Positions 35,013 through 49,533 of a stretch of DNA of 53,917 nt are shown piece by piece. The notes under the pieces were generated by a model that was not told the origin of the DNA, searched no databases, and worked only from the letters and a program-made list of their open reading frames with translations. Numbering within the stretch: position 1 is the first letter of the stretch; every line of letters begins with the position of its first letter. A program made the position numbers and the translations under genes. The stretch is from positions 1-53,917 of the forward strand of contig JAOPYI010000143.1 in NCBI GenBank assembly GCA_025964675.1, written 5' to 3'. The stretch is from Sphaerisporangium sp. Its GTDB lineage: Bacteria; Actinomycetota; Actinomycetes; Streptosporangiales; Streptosporangiaceae.

Positions 35013-35552
35013 TTAGAGCTGATCGGGGGAAGCCGGGCGAATGGCCGCAGTGGAGCCTGTCTGGGATCGTTCGGGCGGTTTCCGGGTGTCCTGTAACAAG
35101 GCACGCTGGATCGCGCGTCGGATGGGCTCGTACCCGGTGCAGCGGCACAGGTTGGAGGTGAGCAGCTCGCGCAGCCGCTCGGGGTCGGCGGCGATCGTGG
35201 GGTCGGACTCCAGCGCTCCCGCGGCGAGCATAAGGAAACCCGGGGTGCAGAAGCCGCACTGGAGGGCATGCTCGGCGGAGAACGCCCGCTGCAACGGATG
35301 CGGCTCGCCGTCAGGGCCCGCCAGCCCCTCCACGGTGCGCACCGAGCGGCCGTCGCACTGCACGGCCAGCAGGAGGCACGACCGGACGGCCTCCCCGTCC
35401 ACCAGCACCGTGCACGCTCCGCAGACGCCGTGCTCGCAGCCAAGGTGCGTGCCGGTCAGACCGCAGTCCTCGCGCAGCACGTCGGCGAGGACACGCCGGG
35501 GTTCCAGGTCCAGCCGGTGCGCCCGGCCGTTCACGGTGAGCGCGATGTTCAT
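35013..35552 (-). CDS. Molybdenum hydroxylase small (2Fe-2S) subunit
   Basis: A 179-aa iron-sulphur subunit of the xanthine dehydrogenase/CO dehydrogenase family that passes electrons from the Mo site to FAD. The plant-type cluster is bound by CEHGVCGAC plus the downstream SC, and the second cluster by CGFCTPGF and CRCTGY; all eight Cys are present. A Pro/Ser tail of about 20 residues is extra. Its ATG overlaps the TGA of the medium subunit (ATGA). Last of the large-medium-small gene order. Confidence 0.93.
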   Translation of the reverse strand: MNIALTVNGRAHRLDLEPRRVLADVLREDCGLTGTHLGCEHGVCGACTVLVDGEAVRSCLLLAVQCDGRSVRTVEGLAGPDGEPHPLQRAFSAEHALQCGFCTPGFLMLAAGALESDPTIAADPERLRELLTSNLCRCTGYEPIRRAIQRALLQDTRKPPERSQTGSTAAIRPASPDQL

Positions 35553-36466
35553 CGCCGATCCCCTCCGGACAAGCGGCGCAGGTCCTCACACGCCTGGTTG
35601 AGCGCCCTGCCGACCAGGACGGCGATCACCTGCCGCTGGTAGGCGACGTCGGCGTACGGCCGGGCGCGGGGATCGGCGTCACACTCGGCGGCGATCCCGC
35701 CCGCCCTGGCGAACGGGTGGTGTTCGGGTGGTCCGGACAGCGGCCGCGCGGCCTCGGCGCCGACCAGGGATCGCTCGGCCGCGTATGCCCGCACCGGTGT
35801 GCCCGCGGCGTTGGCCAGGCCGATGCGGGCCTCGGTCACCACGCCGTCGAATACGGTCAGCGCCGCCATGACGGCGATCACGGCGAAAGAGGCCTGCGTC
35901 CGGCGGTGCTCGGCGAAACCGATCCCGGTCGTGTCCCCGAGCAGGGGGAGTCGCACCGCGGTGATCAGCTCCTGCCGGCGGCGCGCCGTCAGGTGGGGGC
36001 CGTGGAAGAAGTCACGGGCGCCGACCACGCGGGCACCGGTGGGACCGCGCAGCTCGATGCCGGCGTCCAGGGTGACGGCCATGGCGCACCACTCGGCGGC
36101 GGGATGTGCCCAGGCGAGGCTGCCCGCCATGGTGCCGAGGGCGCGGATCGGCGGGTGCGCGATGTGGTGGGCGGCGAGCGAGAGCAGCCGTCCGAGCGGG
36201 CCCGGAGCCACCTCGGGCGACTCGAAGTCGCGGTGGCGGGCCAGCGCCCCGACGTGCAGCGCGCCGTCCCGGACGTCCAGGCGGTCGAGGCCGCGTACGC
36301 GGTTGATGTCCACGACCAGGTCGGGGCGGGATCGCCGGTAGTGCAGTTCCAGCATCAGGCTCTGCCCGCCGGCGAGCACCTGCGCGTGCCGGCTGGTGTC
36401 CGCGAGGGCGTCCACAGCCTCGCGCACCGTGGCGGGCGCGAGGTAGTCGAAGGCGGCGGGCTTCAC
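35549..36466 (-). CDS. Molybdenum hydroxylase medium (FAD) subunit
   Basis: A 305-aa FAD-binding subunit. FAD motifs AGGQSLMLELHYR and ALGTMAGSLAWAHPAAEW (usually TIGGS/GG-A) are visible, with the C-terminal CODH_FAD domain following. GTG 36466 (VKPAAFDYLAPATV) overlaps the stop of the large subunit by 4 bp and is chosen over an upstream in-frame ATG lying inside that gene. It accepts electrons from the 2Fe-2S subunit and passes them to NAD+ or a quinone. Confidence 0.92.
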   Translation of the reverse strand: MKPAAFDYLAPATVREAVDALADTSRHAQVLAGGQSLMLELHYRRSRPDLVVDINRVRGLDRLDVRDGALHVGALARHRDFESPEVAPGPLGRLLSLAAHHIAHPPIRALGTMAGSLAWAHPAAEWCAMAVTLDAGIELRGPTGARVVGARDFFHGPHLTARRRQELITAVRLPLLGDTTGIGFAEHRRTQASFAVIAVMAALTVFDGVVTEARIGLANAAGTPVRAYAAERSLVGAEAARPLSGPPEHHPFARAGGIAAECDADPRARPYADVAYQRQVIAVLVGRALNQACEDLRRLSGGDRR

Positions 36467-38730
36467 CGGCCCTCCCCGGCGTGCGCCGCCTGCCACACGA
36501 CGTCCGGGGTGAGCGGCATGCGCAACAGGCCGGGGTCGGTGACCTCCAGCGCGTCGGCGACCGCGTTCACGATGGCCGGGGGCATGCCGATGCATCCCGC
36601 CTCCCCCGCCCCCTTGGCGCCCAGCCGCGTCGACGGGTTCGGGGTGATGGTCTCGGCCATGTCCAAGGGAGGCATCTCCGAGATGGTCGGAAGCAGGTAG
36701 TCCAGCAGCCCGTCACGCAGCAGCGGCACGCCGTCCTCGCCGTAGGGCACTCCCTCGTAGAGCGCCTGGCCGATCCCCTGCGCGACCGACCCCCGGGTCT
36801 GCCCGGCGACCACCATGGGGTTGACCACCACGCCGTAGTCGTCCACCGCGACGAGCCGCAGCACCCGCACGGTGCCGAGGTCCGGGTCGACCTGCACGAC
36901 GGCGGCGTGGGCGCCGAAGGGGAACGCCGTGTGGGCCCGGATGCGCTCGTCCACGCGCAGCGGGCCGGTGGCCTTCACAAGGTCACCAAGGGTCAGCTCC
37001 ACAGGCTCGCCGGCGCCGGAGCGCAGCGTGCCGCCGGACCAGGTCACCTCGCCGGGCGGCAGTCCCCACAGTCGCGCCGCGCGTTCCCTCGCCCGGCCGA
37101 TCAGCACGGTGGCGGCCTGCCGCAACGCCGCGCCGCCCAGCTGGGCCGAGCGGCTGGCGAACGAGCCCACGCCCTCGGCGACCTCGCCGGTGTCCCCCTC
37201 GATCAGCCGGACCCGGGACTCCTCCAGGCCGAGCGGACCCGCCACCAGCGAGCAGAAGGTCGTCTCGTGGCTCTGCCCGCTGGAGGCGGTCCCGCAGCGG
37301 GCGATCACCGTGCCGTCCGGGCACGCCTCGAGACCGGCGAACTCGTGCAGGCCGGCCGCCTCGCCGCCGGAACGCTCCACGTAGCAGGACAGCCCGATGC
37401 CGAGGGGCGCGGCGCCCGGTTCGGCCCGCCGCTGGGCCTGCTCGGCCCGCCACCGGCCGTAGTCGAGGGTCTTGAGCGCCAGGTCGAGCGCCGCTGAATA
37501 GTTCCCGCTGTCGTAGCGGCGGCCGGTCGGGGTCTCGTACGGGAAGCGCTCGGGAGGGATGAGGTTGCGCCGCCGCAGCTCCGCCGGGTCCATGCGCAGC
37601 CGGTGCGCCAGCAGGTCCATCGACCGCTCCACGGCGTAGGTCGCCTCCGGCCGGCCTGCGCCTCGGTAGGGATATGTCGGCGTCGTGGTGGTCAGCACCG
37701 AGCGGACGGTGGCGTGCACCAGCGGCGTGGTGTAGGCACCGGTGGCCATCGAGGCGGTGAGCATCGGCAGACCCGCTCCGAGCTGCGGGTAGGCTCCCAC
37801 GTCGGCGTCGATGTTCAGCTCGAACGCGAGCAGCCGCCCATCGGCGTCGGCGGCCAGCCGGACCCGCTGGTCCTGCCCCCGGCCGCGGGTGGCGGCGACC
37901 AGCGACTCGGCGCGGTCCTCGATCCACCGGATCGGCCGGCCCAGCTTGACGGCCAGGAAGGCGGCCGTGACGTACTCGGGGAAGGTCGCGCTCTTCGACC
38001 CGAACGCGCCGCCGCTGTCCGGTACGACCACCCGGATCCGCTCGGCGGCCAGGCCCAGCACCCTTGCCAGCTCGTCGCGCAGCCGGTGCGGCGCCTGATG
38101 CGAGCACCATATGGTCAGCCGGCCCCCCTCGGGTACGGCGAGGAACGCCCGGCATTCCATCGGGGAGGGCAACAGGAGCTGCTGGCGGTACCGTGCCTCG
38201 ACCACGACGGCCGCCTCCCGCCAGACGGCCTCGTCGATCGGGGCGCCGGCCGATCCCTCCAGCGCGACGTTGTCCCGGCCGTCGAACAGGGTCACCGAGC
38301 CGTCGAGGGCCTCCACGGTCGACACCGCGGGTGGCAGCGGGTCGATGCGCACGCCGACCTCGGCCGCGCCGTCCTCGGCCCGGTAGCGGTCTGCTCCGAT
38401 CACCACGGCGACGGCCTCGCCGGCGTAGCGCACCCTGTCGGTGGCCAGCGATGGCCATTCGCGCCCGGCCACCGCCTGCGGCGTGGACAGATCCGTGAGA
38501 GCCGCGCGGGGAACCGCGGGGAGGTCCGGCAGGTCGGCGGCCGACCAGGCGCCGATCACCCCGGGCACCCGGCGGGCTGGCGCGCAGTCCACCTCGCGCA
38601 GGCGGCCGTGCGCGACGGCGCTCCGTACGAACGCCGCGTCAAGGCACTTCGGCACGACGATGTCGGCGACGTACCGGCCGCGGCCGGTCAGCAACCGCTC
38701 GTCCTCCCGCCTCGTCCAGCCATGCCACAC
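36463..38730 (-). CDS. Molybdenum hydroxylase large (molybdopterin) subunit
   Basis: A 755-aa catalytic subunit binding the molybdopterin-cytosine cofactor. Recognised from TRREDERLLTGRGRYVADI, PDSGGAFGSKSATFPEY, the loop TYPYRGAGRPEATYAVE and the catalytic Glu in AKGAGEAGCIGMPPAI. The loop lacks the AYRCSFR motif of true aerobic CO dehydrogenase, so an aldehyde, purine or N-heterocycle is a better substrate guess. GTG 38730 has GGAGG 5-6 nt upstream; the frame is open further but without similarity. First gene of a three-gene overlapping operon; no cofactor-insertion (coxD/F or xdhC) gene is adjacent. Confidence 0.92.
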   Translation of the reverse strand: MWHGWTRREDERLLTGRGRYVADIVVPKCLDAAFVRSAVAHGRLREVDCAPARRVPGVIGAWSAADLPDLPAVPRAALTDLSTPQAVAGREWPSLATDRVRYAGEAVAVVIGADRYRAEDGAAEVGVRIDPLPPAVSTVEALDGSVTLFDGRDNVALEGSAGAPIDEAVWREAAVVVEARYRQQLLLPSPMECRAFLAVPEGGRLTIWCSHQAPHRLRDELARVLGLAAERIRVVVPDSGGAFGSKSATFPEYVTAAFLAVKLGRPIRWIEDRAESLVAATRGRGQDQRVRLAADADGRLLAFELNIDADVGAYPQLGAGLPMLTASMATGAYTTPLVHATVRSVLTTTTPTYPYRGAGRPEATYAVERSMDLLAHRLRMDPAELRRRNLIPPERFPYETPTGRRYDSGNYSAALDLALKTLDYGRWRAEQAQRRAEPGAAPLGIGLSCYVERSGGEAAGLHEFAGLEACPDGTVIARCGTASSGQSHETTFCSLVAGPLGLEESRVRLIEGDTGEVAEGVGSFASRSAQLGGAALRQAATVLIGRARERAARLWGLPPGEVTWSGGTLRSGAGEPVELTLGDLVKATGPLRVDERIRAHTAFPFGAHAAVVQVDPDLGTVRVLRLVAVDDYGVVVNPMVVAGQTRGSVAQGIGQALYEGVPYGEDGVPLLRDGLLDYLLPTISEMPPLDMAETITPNPSTRLGAKGAGEAGCIGMPPAIVNAVADALEVTDPGLLRMPLTPDVVWQAAHAGEGR

Positions 38731-38797
38731 GAGGCCCTCCCCCGCAGACCGCGTCTCTGGCTCAACACACCTACCCTCCCCAAACCACCACAAACCG

Positions 38798-38811
38798 GGC
38801 ATACCTATGCC
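38798..38811. promoter_or_regulatory. Small perfect dyad between the hydroxylase and sirtuin genes
   Basis: GGCATA-CC-TATGCC lies 67 bp upstream of the molybdenum hydroxylase start and 41 bp upstream of the sirtuin GTG on the other side. It could be an operator for either. Short, so possibly chance. Confidence 0.25.
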
Positions 38812-38851
38812 GTGTTCCATCGGACCGAGGAACGTGAGGCAGCATGGAAGG

Positions 38852-39685
38852 GTGATCGAGGGTACGGACATGCTGGCGAAGCTGCTGGCCGACGGCGATG
38901 TCGTCGTGCTGAGCGGCGCGGGGATCTCCACCGAGTCCGGCATCCCGGACTACCGGGGACCGACCGGGGCGCTGACCCGGCACAGCCCGATGACCTACCA
39001 GACGTTCATCGGCGACGCGGTGGCGAGGCGGCGCTACTGGGCCCGCAGCCACGTCGGATGGCGCACGATCGCCCGGGCGACGCCGAACGGCGGCCACCGC
39101 GCGGTCGCGCGCCTTCAGCGCCAGGGCCTGGTGGCGGGCATCGTCACCCAGAACGTCGACGGCCTGCACCAGGCGGGCGGCGCCCGGGCGGTCGTCGAGC
39201 TCCACGGGAGCCTGGGCCAGGTGGTCTGCCTGGGCTGCGGAGCCCCGAGCCCGCGGGCGGAGCTGGACCGCCGCCTGAGGTGGGCGAACCCCGGGTTCGA
39301 CGCCCGGATCACCGCGATCAACCCCGACGGCGACGCCGACCTGCGCGACGAGGAGATCGACGGGTTCCAGCTGGTCGGATGCCAGGAGTGCGACGGCGGG
39401 ATGCTGAAGCCCGACGTCGTCTTCTTCGGGGAGACCGTCCCGGCGGAGCGGGTGAGGGAGTGTTTCGCCCTCGTGGAGAGCGCGCGGGTGCTGCTCGTAC
39501 TGGGCTCGTCGCTTACGGTGATGTCGGGCCGGCGGTTCGTGCTGCGGGCCGCGAAGCTCGGCATTCCCGTGGCGATCGTCAACCAGGGCCCCACGCGCGG
39601 GGACGGCTACGCGACCCTCACCGTCGACGCTCCGCTCGGTGTGGTGCTTCCCGAGATAGCCCGTCTCACCGGCACGCCGGCTTGA
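38852..39685 (+). CDS. Sir2-family NAD-dependent protein deacylase
   Basis: A 277-aa sirtuin that removes acyl groups from lysine using NAD+. Motifs: VVLSGAGISTESGIPDYRGP, the NAD-ribose motif TQNVDGLHQAGG, the catalytic His in VELHGSLG, and the zinc site CLGC with CQEC after a longer insert. The final LGSSLTVMSG is the second NAD motif. GTG 38852 is used; an in-frame ATG at 38870 with GAGG 8-9 nt upstream is nearly as good. Divergent from the molybdenum hydroxylase operon. Confidence 0.92.
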   Translation: MIEGTDMLAKLLADGDVVVLSGAGISTESGIPDYRGPTGALTRHSPMTYQTFIGDAVARRRYWARSHVGWRTIARATPNGGHRAVARLQRQGLVAGIVTQNVDGLHQAGGARAVVELHGSLGQVVCLGCGAPSPRAELDRRLRWANPGFDARITAINPDGDADLRDEEIDGFQLVGCQECDGGMLKPDVVFFGETVPAERVRECFALVESARVLLVLGSSLTVMSGRRFVLRAAKLGIPVAIVNQGPTRGDGYATLTVDAPLGVVLPEIARLTGTPA

Positions 39686-42688: not shown

Positions 42689-44566
42689 ATGTCATCACTC
42701 CCGTGGTGGTGGACCAGGTCGCACACCACGACCGTCCCGATCCCCGCCGCGACCCCTCGCCGTGACGTCTCCGGCGCGGTCCCTCACAGTGACACCTCCG
42801 GTGCCGGTCCGAGCCATCCGGCGCGCGGATCCTCGGCGGGTCCCGCCGACCGGCGACGCCTCCTGCCGCGAACGCTCCGGCGCCTGGCCCTGGCGTCGGC
42901 GGCACTCGTCGCGGCCGCTGCCACGCTCTTCCCGACCGCGGCCGGGGCCGCCGACTACAAGGTGCTGGTGTTCTCCAAGACCGCCGGCTTCCGCCACGAC
43001 TCCATCCCCGCCGGCGTCCAGGCCATCCGCGACCTCGGGACGAGTGGCGGCTTCACCGTCACCGCCACAGAGGACGGCGCCGCCATCAGCACCGCGAGCC
43101 TGGCCCAGTACAAGGCCGTGGTCTTCCTCAGCACGACCGGTGACATGCTCGACGGCACGCAGCAGGCGGCCCTGCAGTCCTACGTCGACGGTGGCGGCGG
43201 CTTCGCCGGCATCCATGCCGCGGCGGACGCCGAGTACGGCTGGCCGTACTACGGGCAGCTCGTCGGCGCCTGGTTCGCCAGCCATCCCAACATCCAGCAG
43301 GCGACAGTCAGGACCGAGGACCGCGCGCACGCCGCGACCTCGCACCTCGGGCCGTCCTGGTCCAGGACCGACGAGTGGTACAACTACCGCGCCAACCCGC
43401 GCTCCGCCGTGCACGTCCTGCAGAATCTCGACGAGGGAAGCTACAGCGGCGGGTCCATGAGCGGCGACCACCCCATCACGTGGTGCCACCCGCAGGGCGC
43501 GGGCCGGTCCTTCTACACCGGCCTCGGCCACACCCAGGAGTCCTACGCCGATCCCGCCTTCAGAACGCTGCTGCTCGGCGGCATCGCCTACGCCGCCGGA
43601 GCGGTCAAGGCCGACTGCCGTCCTGAGAACGGGTACACGGCCATCTACAACGGTTCCACGAACGGCTGGTCGCAGGCGGGCCCCGGCTCGTTCACCAACA
43701 CGGACGCCACGCTGACCTCACGGGACGGCCTGGGAATGCTGTGGTACAGCGCCAAGGAGTACCACGCCTACTCGCTCAAACTCGACTGGAAGATGGACGG
43801 GGACGACAACTCAGGCGTGGTCGTCGGCTTCCCCGCCTCCAGCGATCCGTGGTCGGGGCTGAACAACGGTTACGAGGTGCAGATCGACGCCACCGACACG
43901 CCCGACAAGACGACCGGGTCGATCTACGGGATCAAGTCGGCCGACATCGCGGCGCGCGACGCGGCGCTCAACCCGCCGGGACGGTGGAACACCTACGAGC
44001 TGCTCGTCGAGGGCGAACGGCTGCAGGTGTTCCTGAACGGCGTGAAGATCAACGACTTCACCAACACCGACCCCGTACGCTCCCTCCAGCAGGGCTACAT
44101 CGGCATCCAGAACCACGGGACAGGCGACGAGGTGTCCTACCGGAACATCCGTGTCAAGGAGCTCGGCGGCGGTGGCGGCTCGGTGACCGTTGAAGGAGAG
44201 GCCTACACGTCCAACTCGGGCGTGCAGCAGGCGGACCACGCCGGGGCCAGCGGCGGAAAGACGCTGGGGTTCATCAACAACGGCGACTGGACGGGCTACT
44301 CCTCGGTCGACACGTCGGGGGCGAAGAACTTCAGCGTCCGCTTCTCCTCGGCCGGCTCGGGGGGCGCCATCCAGATCCGCTCTGGCTCGGCGACCGGCAC
44401 CCTGCTCGGCTCGGTGAACGTGCCGGTCACCGGCGGCTGGGAGACCTTCCAGACCGTCTCCACCACGCTGACCGGATCGGGGTCGGGACCGCTGTTCCTG
44501 GTCTTCACCGGCAGCGGCGGCAACTTCCTGTTCGACGTCGACACGTTCACGCTCAGCAAGGTCTGA
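42689..44566 (+). CDS. Secreted ThuA / DUF1080 / CBM6 multidomain protein
   Basis: A 625-aa exported carbohydrate-related protein. After an unusual 55-residue N-terminal extension comes a signal peptide (basic RRLLPRTLRR, hydrophobic core, AAGA-A cleavage near residue 87). Residues about 90-305 form a ThuA-like domain (KVLVFSKTAGFRHDSIPAG, GFAGIHAAADAEY). Residues about 314-488 form a DUF1080 concanavalin-like domain (3-keto-glycoside hydrolase family; DGDDNSGVVVGFP). A Gly linker leads to a CBM6-type sugar-binding domain (about 495-625; EGEAYTSNSGVQQADHAGAS). Likely acts outside the cell on oxidised or plant-derived sugars; activity unproven. A strong terminator follows. Confidence 0.88.
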   Translation: MSSLPWWWTRSHTTTVPIPAATPRRDVSGAVPHSDTSGAGPSHPARGSSAGPADRRRLLPRTLRRLALASAALVAAAATLFPTAAGAADYKVLVFSKTAGFRHDSIPAGVQAIRDLGTSGGFTVTATEDGAAISTASLAQYKAVVFLSTTGDMLDGTQQAALQSYVDGGGGFAGIHAAADAEYGWPYYGQLVGAWFASHPNIQQATVRTEDRAHAATSHLGPSWSRTDEWYNYRANPRSAVHVLQNLDEGSYSGGSMSGDHPITWCHPQGAGRSFYTGLGHTQESYADPAFRTLLLGGIAYAAGAVKADCRPENGYTAIYNGSTNGWSQAGPGSFTNTDATLTSRDGLGMLWYSAKEYHAYSLKLDWKMDGDDNSGVVVGFPASSDPWSGLNNGYEVQIDATDTPDKTTGSIYGIKSADIAARDAALNPPGRWNTYELLVEGERLQVFLNGVKINDFTNTDPVRSLQQGYIGIQNHGTGDEVSYRNIRVKELGGGGGSVTVEGEAYTSNSGVQQADHAGASGGKTLGFINNGDWTGYSSVDTSGAKNFSVRFSSAGSGGAIQIRSGSATGTLLGSVNVPVTGGWETFQTVSTTLTGSGSGPLFLVFTGSGGNFLFDVDTFTLSKV

Positions 44567-45143: not shown

Positions 45144-45941
45144 TCATACCTCGCTCGCTATGCCGCGTACCGCCCAGGCCCTGGCGGTGAGCGGAATAGA
45201 GCCATCCAGGCCGAAGGGCAGGCGGCCACGCAGCAGGTCGTGGAGCGCACGACGGCGCTCGTCGGTCAGGGACATGAGGTACCCGGGGGCCGGACCTTGG
45301 CCGCCCAGGAAAGGCCTCCAGTAGTCGTCGAAATCGGCGAACACGGTCGGCACCTCAATGGCCTGGACCGTTACGTCATCCATACCGGCATCCGCCCACA
45401 GTTCGGAGAGGGACTCCGGCCGGCACATCGGGAAGCGCCGGCCCTCGTCCAACTCGGCTGCGGCAGGGTCGAGGGCGCTGGCGGCATCCCAGAAGTACCG
45501 CAGCATCGCCATGCCCTCGGCGTAGTCCCAGACATAGGTAGCGGCCACACCGCCCGATACGGCGACCCGGGCGAACTCGGCCGCGGCGCGGCCCGGGTCG
45601 GGTACGAAGTTGAGCGCCAACCCGCTGACCACGGCGTCGAATCCGCGGTCGGGAAACGGCAGTGCCCGTGCGTCGCCGGCGCGGAAGCTTGACCGCGTGT
45701 CAACGATCCGAGCACGAGCGTTGGCCAGGAATCCCTCGGAGGTGTCCACGCCGACGACATCGGCGGGGTCCGCGAGGGCCAGTACCGTCCCGGTCAGCGC
45801 CCCGGTGCCACAACCCACATCCAGCCAACGCCTGCCCGCGGGCAAGTCGAGCCAGTGCAGAAAGGCTTCCGCGACGGGGCGACTCCACCGGCCCACGTAT
45901 GCCTCGTATGCGTCGCCAACAGACCAGACATCTTGCGCCAT
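45144..45941 (-). CDS. Class I SAM-dependent methyltransferase
   Basis: A 265-aa small-molecule-type methyltransferase of the UbiE/COQ5-like group. Motif I WLDVGCGTGALTG, the acidic VGVDTSEGFL, and motif post-II ALPFPDRGFDAVVSGLALNF are intact. The start at ATG 45941 (MAQDVWSVGDAYEAYVGRWSR) matches the usual N-terminus; upstream in-frame ATGs exist at 45953 and 45992. The acceptor is unknown. It stands 75 bp after the P450 gene on the same strand, so the two could be co-transcribed. Confidence 0.85.
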   Translation of the reverse strand: MAQDVWSVGDAYEAYVGRWSRPVAEAFLHWLDLPAGRRWLDVGCGTGALTGTVLALADPADVVGVDTSEGFLANARARIVDTRSSFRAGDARALPFPDRGFDAVVSGLALNFVPDPGRAAAEFARVAVSGGVAATYVWDYAEGMAMLRYFWDAASALDPAAAELDEGRRFPMCRPESLSELWADAGMDDVTVQAIEVPTVFADFDDYWRPFLGGQGPAPGYLMSLTDERRRALHDLLRGRLPFGLDGSIPLTARAWAVRGIASEV

Positions 45942-46068
45942 GGTGGCGAGCATACGACCGCTGCCTGTTCCCGGTTTCCGCTTCGCACTCATGTGCCGCT
46001 GACCATGCGCTACTCGCGGTCCGCAGCGGGCAGCGCGGGAACGGTCCTGTGAACAGGAAGGGCCGGAC

Positions 46069-47457
46069 TTAGCCGGGGGCGCTTGAGCGCGACCATGAGC
46101 GATGCGTTCCCATGGCCGCCTCAGGGCGGTGTGTCGGCGCGGTGGTCCGCACGTTGGCCATGATGAAGCCGCTTCGCGGTGCGGTCGGCATCCGCGTCAA
46201 CGGGTACCGCAGGTCCTGCGCGGGAACGTCGTAGTGCAGCCGGGTCAGCATCCGGGTGGCTGCCTTGAGGAGCTCGACGGCGACCCTCTCCCCGGCGCAG
46301 CGGTGCCCGGTGGCCGGGTCGCCGCCGCCCTGCGGGACGAAGGCGAAGGGGTCGGGTTCCCGGCCGGCGAACCGGTCGGGGTCGAAGCGGTGCGGGTCCC
46401 GCCACAGGGCGGGGTCGTGACATGTGCCGTAGACGTCCAGCACTACCATGCGGCGGCGGCGGACCCGTCGCCCCCGCCAGTGGAAGTCCCGCCGGGCCCG
46501 ATCACCCAGGGCCGGAGCGAACGGGTAGAGGCGGCGAACCTCGTGGGCGAACGCCTCCAACAGGTCCTCCTTCCCCTCGGCCAGCCGGGCACGCCACTCG
46601 GGATGATCGTGCAGCGCCAGCGCGGCGAAGGTGACGAACCAGGCCACCGCGACGGTGGGGCGGACGATGTTGAGAAGCTCCACCGCGGCGGTCCGCACGT
46701 CCAGCGGCTCGCCGTCGAGGTCCCGGTGGGACGCGACCACCTGCAGCGGGCTGCCGACCGGTGGGTTGAGTCGTCCTGCGCGGACCTCGCGGACCAGGCG
46801 CCGGGCCCACGGCTCGGCCCGCAGGCGTGCCAGGCGGGCGCGCAGCTGACGAGGCCCGAAGCTACCGAACCCATCCACGATCCGGGCCAGGTCTCGCGCC
46901 CGGGACGCGGCCTTGGCCGGCTTGATCGGGATGCCGGCCCAGGTGAACGCGGTCTCCCCGAGGGTCACCACGGCCTGGTCGAACAGGACGACGCGGCCGG
47001 ACTCCTCCCAGCGACCGGCCGCCGCCTGCCATCGTTCGGCGGCGATCTCCGACAGCGCGGCCAGGGCCGCGGGGTCGGCGGTCACCGACAGGAACATGGC
47101 CTTGCGGTGCCGGTGCTCCTCCCCGTCGAGGAGGTGCACGGCGCCCTCACCGAACAGCGTCCGCCGGATCGGGCGCGGCACCATCCTCGCCTGACGGACC
47201 TTTGAGCCGTCGTAGAACAGCCGCGCCGCCTCACGGCCGCGCATGCACAGGGCCCGCCGGCCGAACAGCCGTGTCTCGAACGTATCGGTGTTCCAGCGCT
47301 GGAAGCGGCGCACGAAGAAGGTGTAACCCTCGGCGAGGAACGCGACGCTGCGGTCCAGCACCGTCCGCGTGGGGACGCCGCCGTTCCGCACCTCGCCACG
47401 CCGGCCGAGTCGTTGTTTCCTCATATCGTTGCCGTACCCGGGGCCGCCGGTAGCCAT
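46069..47457 (-). CDS. CYP152-type P450 fatty-acid peroxygenase/decarboxylase candidate
   Basis: A 462-aa cytochrome P450 of the CYP152 peroxygenase family, which uses H2O2 directly on long-chain fatty acids. The haem loop VPQGGGDPATGHRCAGE places the Cys ligand at 387. In the I-helix, NIVRPTVAVAWFVTFAALAL keeps the Arg-Pro pair (R266, P267) that binds the substrate carboxylate in place of the usual acid-alcohol pair. The haem-distal segment LFGEGAVHLLDG aligns Phe102 and His108 with Phe79 and His85 of OleT, whereas the hydroxylases P450-BSbeta and P450-SPalpha have Gln at the His position. It may therefore form terminal alkenes as well as hydroxy acids. ATG 47424 is an alternative start. Confidence 0.9.
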   Translation of the reverse strand: MATGGPGYGNDMRKQRLGRRGEVRNGGVPTRTVLDRSVAFLAEGYTFFVRRFQRWNTDTFETRLFGRRALCMRGREAARLFYDGSKVRQARMVPRPIRRTLFGEGAVHLLDGEEHRHRKAMFLSVTADPAALAALSEIAAERWQAAAGRWEESGRVVLFDQAVVTLGETAFTWAGIPIKPAKAASRARDLARIVDGFGSFGPRQLRARLARLRAEPWARRLVREVRAGRLNPPVGSPLQVVASHRDLDGEPLDVRTAAVELLNIVRPTVAVAWFVTFAALALHDHPEWRARLAEGKEDLLEAFAHEVRRLYPFAPALGDRARRDFHWRGRRVRRRRMVVLDVYGTCHDPALWRDPHRFDPDRFAGREPDPFAFVPQGGGDPATGHRCAGERVAVELLKAATRMLTRLHYDVPAQDLRYPLTRMPTAPRSGFIMANVRTTAPTHRPEAAMGTHRSWSRSSAPG

Positions 47458-47514
47458 GCTGACGACGAAGTCAGCGTCGTCGCGCGCGGCCTCCGGACAC
47501 CAGGTCTCGCGTGT

Positions 47515-47718
47515 TCACGCCTCATGGGCCTGCTCGCCGTCTCTCGGCGTCCTCGTGGCCATCCGCCACCCGCCACCTTTGCACCCGTCAGGAAGCGGCG
47601 GAAACACATTGCCCTTGACGTCGGTCGACCAACGGTGGCCGTCTCCGGCGTCGCACTCGTAGATGCCGCTCTCCCGCACGTGCGTACCGGGATGGTGACT
47701 CTGTCCTGCTGCAGCCAT
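47515..47718 (-). CDS. Small Cys/His/Trp-rich protein
   Basis: A 67-aa protein I do not recognise by name. The core SGIYECDAGDGHRWSTDVKG, followed by NVFPPLPDGCKGGGWRM, has the Cys, His, Trp and Gly pattern of a small metal-binding or ribbon-like fold (two Cys, several His). It lies 57 bp upstream of the P450 start on the same strand, so the two are probably co-transcribed. Function unknown; composition and context support a real gene. Confidence 0.5.
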   Translation of the reverse strand: MAAAGQSHHPGTHVRESGIYECDAGDGHRWSTDVKGNVFPPLPDGCKGGGWRMATRTPRDGEQAHEA

Positions 47719-47801
47719 ACCAGCCGCCTACCCGGCCTGGTGTGCGGAGATGTCAGGCATTGCGGATCATTGGACCGGGCCAGGCATCGTGGATGCTTTC
47801 G

Positions 47802-48230
47802 CTACGGAAGAACCTCGGCCAGCTCTCTGGGCATGCTCGACTTGATGTCATCCCACTCGCCCTCGGTGACATAAAGCCTGAGAGCGTTGAGGACCGTTTC
47901 TATCAGCTGCTCGATACCGCCTTTGACCTCATAGGGAAACTCGCTTCGTACGCGGGCCAGGAACTCTTCTCTGCCCATTTTGACGGGGACACGGCTGGGG
48001 TCCCAGCCGTGGTAGTAGATGCCGCGGACCAGCATCGGGAGCTGAGCGCCGAGCTGCGCGGCCTCTTCGACGGTCAGGCGGTCACGCAATGCGTGCAGGA
48101 CCGCCCTCAAAGCGGCGTAGGACTGGTTCCGCCGTTCCTTCGGCCATCCGTACGCCTCTTCGATCTGCTTCAGCAGACGGTTGGTCTTGTCGACGGTGGT
48201 GTTGAAAGACGAGTAACCCGTTTCCGCCAT
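47802..48230 (-). CDS. DUF2267 domain-containing protein
   Basis: A 142-aa soluble protein of the DUF2267 family. The family pattern is clear: AYGWPKERRNQSYAALRAVL, HALRDRLTVEEAAQLGAQLP, then LVRGIYYHGWDPSRVPVK and the second helical half. ATG 48230 has AGGAGG 9 nt upstream. DUF2267 genes often stand near small heat-shock and universal stress genes, as here (Hsp20 0.8 kb away). Function unknown. Confidence 0.85.
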   Translation of the reverse strand: MAETGYSSFNTTVDKTNRLLKQIEEAYGWPKERRNQSYAALRAVLHALRDRLTVEEAAQLGAQLPMLVRGIYYHGWDPSRVPVKMGREEFLARVRSEFPYEVKGGIEQLIETVLNALRLYVTEGEWDDIKSSMPRELAEVLP

Positions 48231-48533
48231 CGGCTCTGCCTCCTGTCCATGCGGTTTGTGACTCGCGGCGCATCGTCGCGGTGCGTCACACGGCGAAGGG
48301 AAGGCTTCGCGCCCGCCGGCCGCGTGGAAGCCGCGATATCCGCGGTGGCGCTGTCTGAAGATCCGCCACGTGCGGTCATCGCGTCTGAACCATCGATGAG
48401 CGCGGCGGCTGGACGAACCGACCACTAAGCCGGCACGAGCACGTCGCATGACCCATTGCGTCCCCCTAACCTCATGCGAGATGTGGGGAATGGCGCACGG
48501 CACCCCTTGCCAGGGTCTGCCGCCGCCATGTGC
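48231..48533. other. 303-bp intergenic region upstream of DUF2267
   Basis: No gene is supported, although a frame is open through it. It holds a spaced dyad TGTGAC (48257-48262) and GTCACA (48285-48290) enclosing CGCG repeats, in the leader of the DUF2267 gene. The promoter for that gene should be here, but I cannot place it. Confidence 0.35.
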
Positions 48534-48773
48534 TCAGATCGGCTCCGAGGTCGCCTTCTCCGCCGCCTGATGCAAAGCGTCGGCCATGGCCAGGACGCCT
48601 TTGGGCTCGAAGACGAGCATGACCCGGCGTTCTTGTCCTGTGTCCCGGTCCACCGCGGCGACTTCCTGCACGACCACCCGGGCACTGATGGTGCCGTCCT
48701 CGGCGGGCACGTCCAGTGTGGCGACCCCGATGTCTACCTCGCGAGCGAACAGTTCTTCAAGGTCAACGGCCAT
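48534..48773 (-). CDS. Hypothetical small acidic protein
   Basis: A 79-aa protein without a recognised family. It is acidic, predicted beta-rich then helical (DIGVATLDVPAEDGTISARV, then VLAMADALHQAAEKA). The ATG is preceded 7 nt upstream by TAGCGT and no ribosome binding site, pointing to a leaderless transcript. It lies between DUF2267 and the divergent Hsp20 gene, so it may belong to the same stress response. Confidence 0.5.
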   Translation of the reverse strand: MAVDLEELFAREVDIGVATLDVPAEDGTISARVVVQEVAAVDRDTGQERRVMLVFEPKGVLAMADALHQAAEKATSEPI

Positions 48774-49038
48774 ATCTGCGACGCTACGTCCTGGTTCGGC
48801 GACCGTACACCTTGCCTACGCCTCGCCCGGTTAATGGTCTATCCAGCAATTGAGGCTCACCTCGCCGAGGCGGGGCCGGCGGGATGAGACCGGGTGTGGT
48901 TTCGATCGCCGTCGGGTATCTGTCACTGCGCAAGCAGCACTGTGCCGGCGGCCGCGCAGGTCGCGTTTCTCGATGGCCTCCTCGCGGGGACGAGGACGCC
49001 CATCCAAGCTTCTTCACCGATGACAACAGGGGGATGTC

Positions 49039-49533
49039 ATGACACTGCCGATGAGGCGCACCAGAGGTGGCCACCTGCACGGGGTCGAGCCGTCTCCGAT
49101 GCTGCGACGGGACGCTTTCGCCGACGTTCAGGACCTGCTCAACCGGATCGGATGGATGGTCCAGCAGACGGTCGACAACGAGGCCGAAGGTCCGTGGGTG
49201 CCCGTCGCCGAGATCGACGAGTCCGATGACGCCTACGTCGTCAAACTCGAGCTGCCCGGCGTCGGACCGGCGGACATCGAGATCGGGATCAGTGACCGCG
49301 AACTGTGCATCAACGGTGAGGTCCGTGAGCAGGAGGAAGGTTCCAACGCGCTACGGGTCCGGATGGGGCGGTTCCACTACCACACCTCACTGCCCTCCGA
49401 TGTGGACGAAGACAACGTGGACGCCTCAGTCGACGAAGGGGTCTTGACCGTGCGGATCCCCAAGGCCTCGCAAAGCCGGGCCCGTCGCATCGAGGTCGCG
49501 CACGGGCAATCCGAAGGCGCCGGGCGTACCTGA
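49039..49533 (+). CDS. Hsp20 family small heat-shock protein
   Basis: A 164-aa small heat-shock chaperone that holds unfolding proteins in large oligomers. The alpha-crystallin domain spans about residues 50-150: WVPVAEIDESDDAYVVKLEL at the start and the closing GVLTVRIPKA with the conserved GVL. The C-terminal tail is Arg/Gly-rich. ATG 49039 has a GGGGGA ribosome binding site 5-6 nt upstream. I see neither a CIRCE nor a HAIR element upstream, so control by HrcA or HspR is not supported. Confidence 0.93.
   Translation: MTLPMRRTRGGHLHGVEPSPMLRRDAFADVQDLLNRIGWMVQQTVDNEAEGPWVPVAEIDESDDAYVVKLELPGVGPADIEIGISDRELCINGEVREQEEGSNALRVRMGRFHYHTSLPSDVDEDNVDASVDEGVLTVRIPKASQSRARRIEVAHGQSEGAGRT

Follow-up and report, generated by a model that had tools for sequence, protein, structure and literature searches.

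A CYP152-family cytochrome P450 of Sphaerisporangium sp. that combines His85 with Val170, predicted to form mainly 3-hydroxy fatty acids

A gene encoding a cytochrome P450, which its sequence indicates is a full-length member of the CYP152 family, was identified in a 53,917-nucleotide stretch of DNA from Sphaerisporangium sp. (the whole of the stretch that was analysed, hereafter the window). The protein is predicted to be an H2O2-driven fatty-acid peroxygenase, and has a pocket of the type Phe79/His85/Val170/Phe173/Ala292 (OleT numbering). Weighing these residues against published mutants and relatives, we consider it probable that the enzyme is a beta-selective peroxygenase making mainly 3-hydroxy acids, with a smaller and variable share of 1-alkenes. 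It adds a member to a known family, one whose useful trait is that it separates the determinants proposed for decarboxylation.

Identification of the P450 gene and its active-site residues

The preliminary description had placed a CYP152 P450 at 46069–47457 and given no strand; the gene lies on the minus strand as a complete frame of 462 amino acids, and a plus-strand reading of the same range contains stops. Family and full length were borne out by phmmer and by a match to Pfam p450, the latter covering the C-terminal part. The phmmer scores were 396–406 bits against P450-BSbeta-type chains, from residue 27 or 28 to 437–443 (best 9iy1, E 2e-120, and 1izo, E 1e-119, 403 bits; residues 27–438), and 285–289 bits against OleT chains. 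The NCBIfam model for CypC, NF053744, matched with 494.3 bits, below its curated cut-off of 600. Residue numbers are counted here from position 47457, the start of the 462-residue reading given earlier. The true start is probably residue 12 (position 47424, 33 bases after 47457), which would give a coding sequence at 46069–47424 (minus strand, 451 amino acids, with the TAA stop in the range). This start is preferred because the homologues in the loci of the five nearest relatives (L001–L005) begin with an ATG or GTG aligned to residue 12, and because its distance from the promoter-like box described below is constant.

The first alignment comprised the window P450, the structures of OleTJE (4l40), BSbeta (1izo), CYP152K6 (6fyj) and CYP152N1 (5yhj), the chains 8d8p, 8vwk and 8w1j (named 'Decarboxylase', 'Cytochrome P450' and 'Fatty acid decarboxylase' in the PDB, respectively) and 63 collected rows; left out of it were the duplicates L044–L046, the query itself (L027), a non-CYP152 P450 (L030) and the partial sequences L026 and L040. 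A larger alignment of 138 rows (8 references) included rows from extra searches with the 8d8p sequence. The residues to which the preliminary description had drawn attention are present, as checked by codon: Phe102 (47152–47154), His108 (47134–47136), Arg266-Pro267 (46657–46662) and the haem ligand Cys387 (46297–46299), all on the minus strand, align with Phe79, His85, Arg245-Pro246 and Cys365 of OleTJE. A different residue at the His85 position, which that description had proposed to look for, was not found, His108 being the aligned residue. Its statement that BSbeta and P450-SPalpha have Gln at this position agrees with the alignment, and Gln is also reported for P450-CLA (PMC5377825). The cysteine is conserved in 138/138 rows, as is the arginine of the carboxylate anchor, the proline following in 137/138. 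The window P450 thus has Arg-Pro at the point where monooxygenase P450s carry an acid-alcohol pair, as is typical of CYP152 enzymes (for the role of Arg-Pro see PMC6167049).

Two active-site differences between OleT and BSbeta have been described, at position 85 (His/Gln) and at position 170 (Ile/Val) (PMC5588734, PMC5343568). Position 170, omitted from the diagnostic residues given earlier, corresponds to Val194 (46876–46878, minus strand; codon checked), the BSbeta state. The stretch spanning the F-G loop, an extended form of which is counted as important for OleT-type decarboxylation (PMC13049924), has 17 residues in the window P450 and in BSbeta, 20 in OleT and 16 in 8d8p, 8vwk and 8w1j. 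At the OleT-292 position the window P450 has Ala314 (46516–46518, minus strand; codon checked), intermediate in size between the Gly of BSbeta and the Val of OleT, 8d8p, 8vwk and 8w1j, while alpha-hydroxylases have a Phe with a role in alpha selectivity (PMC6167049). Phe197 (46867–46869, minus strand) aligns with Phe173 of BSbeta and OleT; SPalpha, K6 and N1, which are alpha-hydroxylases, have Ala or Gly there. The combination of Phe173 with a residue other than Phe at 292 sets BSbeta, OleT and the 8d8p group apart from SPalpha, K6 and N1; it was found in 98 of 100 His85 rows and in 4 of the 38 other rows, and it places the window P450 on the beta side. Overall identity was 43.6% to BSbeta, 40.4% to SPalpha, 35.3% to OleT and 34.4–36.4% to 8d8p, 8vwk and 8w1j.

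Distribution of His85 and predicted products

At a threshold of E 1e-40 or better, 53 of the 200 genomes sampled from the window's family contained CYP152 sequences, as did 14 of 396 from its phylum; both counts include the genome to which the window belongs. His85 occurred in 96 of the 130 non-reference rows (78 with Val170, 16 with Leu, 1 with Ile and 1 with Ala); these rows include the window P450 itself and two identical to 8d8p and 8vwk, and as the window P450 and the 8d8p sequence served as queries the sample is biased to the His85 clade and the fraction is not a census. Even in a sample leaning to His85, such a count rules out the 'OleT-like signature' as a rare mark, and the Phe/His/Arg combination is, judging by the rows collected, clearly widespread in CYP152. 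The full set of His85, Ile170, Phe173 and Val292 was present in OleTJE as the sole row, in a sample that held no other OleT-type Firmicute sequences.

In a quick IQ-TREE analysis of 72 rows, the window P450 grouped with L001–L003 (SH-aLRT 99) and then with L004–L005 (98), and this query group adjoined a five-row group holding 8d8p, 8vwk and 8w1j (83) within a clade of 42 rows (96). A second tree was built from 113 rows, 18 near-duplicates and 7 divergent rows (L014, L024, L034, L041, L043, L117 and L118) having been removed from the 138. It contained an actinobacterial clade of 80 rows (99) with His85 in 79 and Gln in 1, and with Val170 in 67, Leu in 12 and Ala in 1; 8d8p, 8vwk and 8w1j fell in a nested Leu170 group of 12 rows. 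The query group and the 8d8p group were not closely paired in this tree, the order of the three main subgroups being left open. OleTJE and BSbeta fell outside the His85 clade in both trees. Because the minimum number of His/non-His changes at position 85 on the second tree was four, the trees suggest that His85 was gained separately in OleT and in the 80-row actinobacterial clade, with the caveat that the searches were short and without bootstrap, that OleT sits on a long branch, that the deepest splits are weak, and that the root was chosen by hand, two outgroup rows of the second tree not forming one side of any branch.

The preliminary description had taken Phe, His and Arg as a sign that the enzyme may make 1-alkenes. 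The assignment to CYP152, the Arg-Pro anchor and His85 all stand, whereas the step from there to OleT-like alkene making is weakened by Val170, by an F-G stretch three residues shorter than that of OleT, by an identity of 35% and by the separate His85 clade. His85 by itself is not diagnostic of alkene formation. For C16, decarboxylation/hydroxylation ratios of 0.19 for BSbeta, 0.30 for BSbeta Q85H and 3.32 for OleT were obtained by Rude et al. (as cited in PMC5377825; PMC5343568 also gives the values for BSbeta and its mutant). Replacement of Ile170 by Val or Leu in OleT led to loss of C14 decarboxylation (PMC5343568), and BSbeta Q85H/V170I reached a ratio of about 1.3 on C16 (PMC5588734). The BSbeta variant L78I/Q85H/G290I, apparently the chain 7wyg among the phmmer matches, was reported as a beta-hydroxylase with a beta/alpha ratio above 20. 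The proxies among these for the combination of His85 and Val170, BSbeta Q85H and L78I/Q85H/G290I, mainly hydroxylate; they are mutants of a 44%-identical enzyme. Searches of openly accessible papers, made with terms other than the residue pair, returned no assay of a natural enzyme reported to carry both. The residue rules themselves are disputed, since one study reported a loss of decarboxylation for OleT H85X mutants (PMC5343568) and H85Q made by another group gave a very similar alkene profile (PMC5377825). Two chains that the PDB names decarboxylases, 8d8p and 8w1j, combine a short loop with Leu170, so that neither a long loop nor Ile170 appears to be required. Residue 170 is also ruled out as a perfect switch by the genus that holds the exact 8vwk sequence (g489), in which eight of nine CYP152 proteins have Leu170 and the ninth, L136, which is more distant than the other eight, has Val170.

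The enzyme might nevertheless be mainly a decarboxylase that yields 1-alkenes by OleT chemistry, with hydrogen abstraction at C-beta, loss of CO2 and assistance by His108. This would be in keeping with the presence of Phe79, His85 and Arg245 together, with the membership of 8d8p and 8w1j in the same 80-row clade, with the formation of 1-pentadecene by CYP152 enzymes of Corynebacterium efficiens and Kocuria rhizophila (PMC5818669), and with an evolved BSbeta variant, cited for decarboxylation, whose Q85H and G290V changes come near the His and Ala found here (PMC10992877). Set against these are Val170, where OleT has Ile and 8d8p, 8vwk and 8w1j have Leu, the BSbeta length of the F-G loop and the small effect of Q85H alone on BSbeta, so that we regard alkenes as the main product as unlikely, while 1-alkene as a side product is plausible in the light of these comparisons. 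A predominantly alpha-hydroxylating enzyme, or one giving an even alpha/beta/alkene mixture as wild-type BSbeta does on C14 (about one third each; PMC5588734, Table 1), would fit the top bit scores, which were to BSbeta-type chains; we hold it to be quite improbable, as the alpha-selective SPalpha, K6 and N1 have Ala or Gly at 173 and Phe at 292 where the window P450 has Phe and Ala, and as Q85H in BSbeta lowered alpha-hydroxylation and raised beta-hydroxylation and alkene formation (PMC5377825).

For the favoured beta-selective peroxygenase, the known relatives suggest the following course. The carboxylate of the fatty acid would bind Arg266 and, acting as general acid, convert bound H2O2 into Compound I. 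C-beta rather than C-alpha would be positioned over the iron by Phe197 and the small Ala314, and it is from C-beta that a hydrogen would be abstracted. Hydroxyl rebound would then give mainly the 3-hydroxy acid, and a variable, smaller share might escape rebound with the aid of His108 and its waters, lose CO2 and leave as the 1-alkene.

Promoter-like site and neighbouring genes

A SigB-type promoter-like site, GCATGG-N14-GGGTAC (47434–47459, minus strand), ends 9 nt before the preferred ATG, and its -35 box overlaps the start codon at 47457. In Streptomyces, SigB-type promoters carry GNNT or GTTT as the -35 element and, at -10, a GGG that hardly varies (PMC8346170). In all six loci of the subclade (the window and L001–L005) a GGGTA(C/G) box ends 9–10 nt before the P450 start, a spacing implying, on sequence grounds, near-leaderless P450 transcripts. 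The strict GTTT form lies directly before the P450 gene in L001, L003 and L004, with L002 and L005 one base off in the -35 box. The pattern GTTT-N14-16-GGGTA occurred seven times in the loci of the five relatives (58,469 bases, for which a first-order shuffle gave an expectation of 0.075), three of the seven directly before the P450, and six times in 558,770 bases of 37 other CYP152 loci (0.63 per 58,469); the counts in the subclade reflect shared ancestry and are not independent events. A strict form ending in ATG was found twice in 61 genomes, once as the P450 promoter of the genome holding L001 (G447), and a reversed control pattern three times; the window's genome lacked this strict form.

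The loose form G..T..N13-14-GGGTA(C/T/G) occurred seven times in the window, where 4.0 were expected by chance, so the window's box was rejected as significant by itself. The case for the site rests on position and kinship because the loose form is near chance level, and the window's own copy is a weak candidate promoter for which its place and its relatives speak. The window's genome encodes two SigB/F/G-family factors scoring above the curated cut-off. The gene may, more tentatively than the catalytic steps above, be turned on by such a SigB-family stress sigma factor. Further sites of this type were observed elsewhere. A loose form, GTGTGG-N14-GGGTAT, by itself not rarer than chance, lies at 48894–48919 (plus strand) of the window, 119 nt before the ATG of an HSP20 gene. 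L004 has additional GTTT-N14-16-GGGTA sites at 1743 (+), 4302 (-) and 7383 (+) within one 13-kb locus, one of them directly before a Ser/Thr kinase gene; the set looks like a small stress regulon.

The P450 gene shares its strand with genes for a DUF2267 protein (47802–48503, true start probably internal), a 67-amino-acid Cys/His protein upstream (47515–47718; no Pfam or NCBIfam match), a generic class I methyltransferase downstream (45144–45992; identified by Pfam) and a YjbR protein; an HSP20 small heat-shock protein is encoded on the other strand (49039–49533, plus). The suggestion that the small Cys/His protein and the methyltransferase are partners of the P450 did not hold, as neither gave a tblastn match near the P450 in L001–L005, its five closest relatives. 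A further set of 20 stretches surrounding CYP152 genes in related genomes, each at most 19.9 kb long and three of them extending the loci L001–L003, likewise gave no match. No tblastn match for the YjbR protein or for the ORF at 48534 was obtained in the same loci and stretches.

An HSP20 gene accompanies the P450 in three loci, the window, L001 and L002, its arrangement varying among them, and a DUF2267 gene does so in the window and L002. Usp genes are present in L002, together with YflT, and in L004, so that HSP20 or Usp is near the P450 in four of the six subclade loci. None of HSP20, DUF2267 and Usp was found in L144, the longer stretch of L003. The stress neighbours do not characterise the family clade as a whole: among 17 other family loci, HSP20 and DUF2267 were matched in none and Usp in 2. 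The window's genome has three HSP20 genes. Divergent from and adjacent to the P450 in L004 (4632–5870, minus) and L005 (1098–2429, minus) is a gene for a flavohaemoglobin-like globin-reductase, with globin, FAD and NAD domains in L005 and a copy 81% alike in L004; its product might supply peroxide, or it might be a co-stress gene.

The 67-amino-acid protein has five more full or partial matches in the window's genome (contigs C108, C178, C309, C255 and C87; best three 84%, 69% and 61% identity), and weak matches in just 2 of 99 other family genomes; for the longer copies the DNA similarity spans about 200–260 bp. Third-position GC is 0.74–0.89 for the genes at 45144–48503 and mostly at least 0.9 in the larger genes around them. 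Together with the finding of a CYP152 gene in one of ten other same-genus genomes listed (45% identity), which rules out the P450 as a genus core gene, this lowered GC suggests that the P450, methyltransferase, 67-amino-acid protein and DUF2267 genes may form a laterally gained island. Close plasmid copies of the window P450 were ruled out, as the 99 plasmid records with CYP152 relatives all had less than 60% identity; with the 8d8p sequence as query, no plasmid match was obtained at E 1e-60. On plasmids such as those of Sulfitobacter (for example NZ_CP139712.1 and CP010861.1), several CYP152 relatives lie next to cation-transporter and lspA genes or overlap them. Elsewhere in the window, a three-domain protein with ThuA, 3-keto-disaccharide hydrolase and CBM6 domains is encoded at 42689–44566 (plus), and 2Fe-2S and molybdopterin subunits of a xanthine-dehydrogenase-type oxidase at 35013–38943 (minus).

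The surroundings also bear on the possibility that the natural substrate is a special lipid acid, for instance branched or hydroxylated, or the acyl portion of some secondary metabolite, in which case products formed from C12–C20 acids in vitro would mislead. BSbeta itself serves lipopeptide synthesis (PMC12405028) and the distribution of CYP152 genes is patchy, but a Pfam scan of 18 window proteins revealed no biosynthetic cluster and the carboxylate anchor is intact, and we give this possibility very little weight.

Comparison with known CYP152 enzymes

Which factor directs CYP152 enzymes to hydroxylation or decarboxylation is treated as unsettled in the literature (PMC13049924). In a natural clade that has His85 together with Val170 and a short F-G loop, the proposed determinants occur apart from one another without mutagenesis. 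It is conceivable, though we put it forward as a doubtful proposal, that the actinobacterial clade gained His85 independently and kept Val170 as a natural intermediate on the way from beta-hydroxylase to decarboxylase, a bulkier residue at 170 being a second, convergent step (Ile in OleT, Leu in 8d8p and 8w1j), and that the query subclade is driven by SigB. If so, release of alkene or 3-hydroxy acid in this subclade would be part of a stress response and not constitutive hydrocarbon making. The stress-type promoter of the relatives offers an initial clue, open to testing, to the conditions under which actinomycetes employ a CYP152. Should the enzyme prove an ordinary beta-hydroxylase, Phe/His/Arg should not serve to annotate alkene producers.

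With P450-BSbeta/CypC of Bacillus subtilis (CYP152A1, 1izo), which is among its top-scoring matches, the window P450 has in common Phe79, Val170, Phe173, the Arg-Pro pair and the F-G stretch of 17 residues. The two differ in Gln85 and Gly292 of BSbeta against His and Ala here, BSbeta lies outside the clade of the window P450 in both trees, and the score below the NF053744 cut-off and the pair His-Val in place of Gln85-Val170 set the protein apart from CypC equivalogs. A link to SigB may be a further likeness: a modelling study lists cypC among the genes controlled by SigB (PMC7824861), and the window P450 has the promoter-like site.

OleTJE of Jeotgalicoccus (CYP152L1, 4l40) shares Phe79, His85, Phe173, Arg245-Pro246 and Cys365 with the window P450, and has Ile170, Val292 and a 20-residue F-G stretch where the latter has Val, Ala and 17 residues. 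The OleT-type features Phe79/His85/Arg245 are thus present in the window P450, whereas Ile170, the extended F-G loop and a grouping with OleT are not; its identity to OleTJE lies below the about 60% or more taken for CYP152L, and the trees place it in a separate His85 lineage.

With 8d8p, which we take to be OleTPRN of Rothia, 8w1j and 8vwk the window P450 shares the 80-row His85 clade, Phe173 and a residue other than Phe at 292. They differ from it in Leu170, Val292 and a 16-residue F-G stretch, at 34–36% identity, and the window P450 lies outside their 12-row Leu170 subclade and inside the larger His85 clade. CYP152T1 (P450 KR) of Kocuria rhizophila is likewise actinobacterial and has His at the OleT-85 position (PMC5818669); it is listed as beta-hydroxy-major (PMC12284513), though it also forms 1-pentadecene (PMC5818669). 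If the genus holding the 8vwk sequence is Kocuria, this enzyme probably has Leu170 and yet is listed as mainly forming the beta-hydroxy acid.
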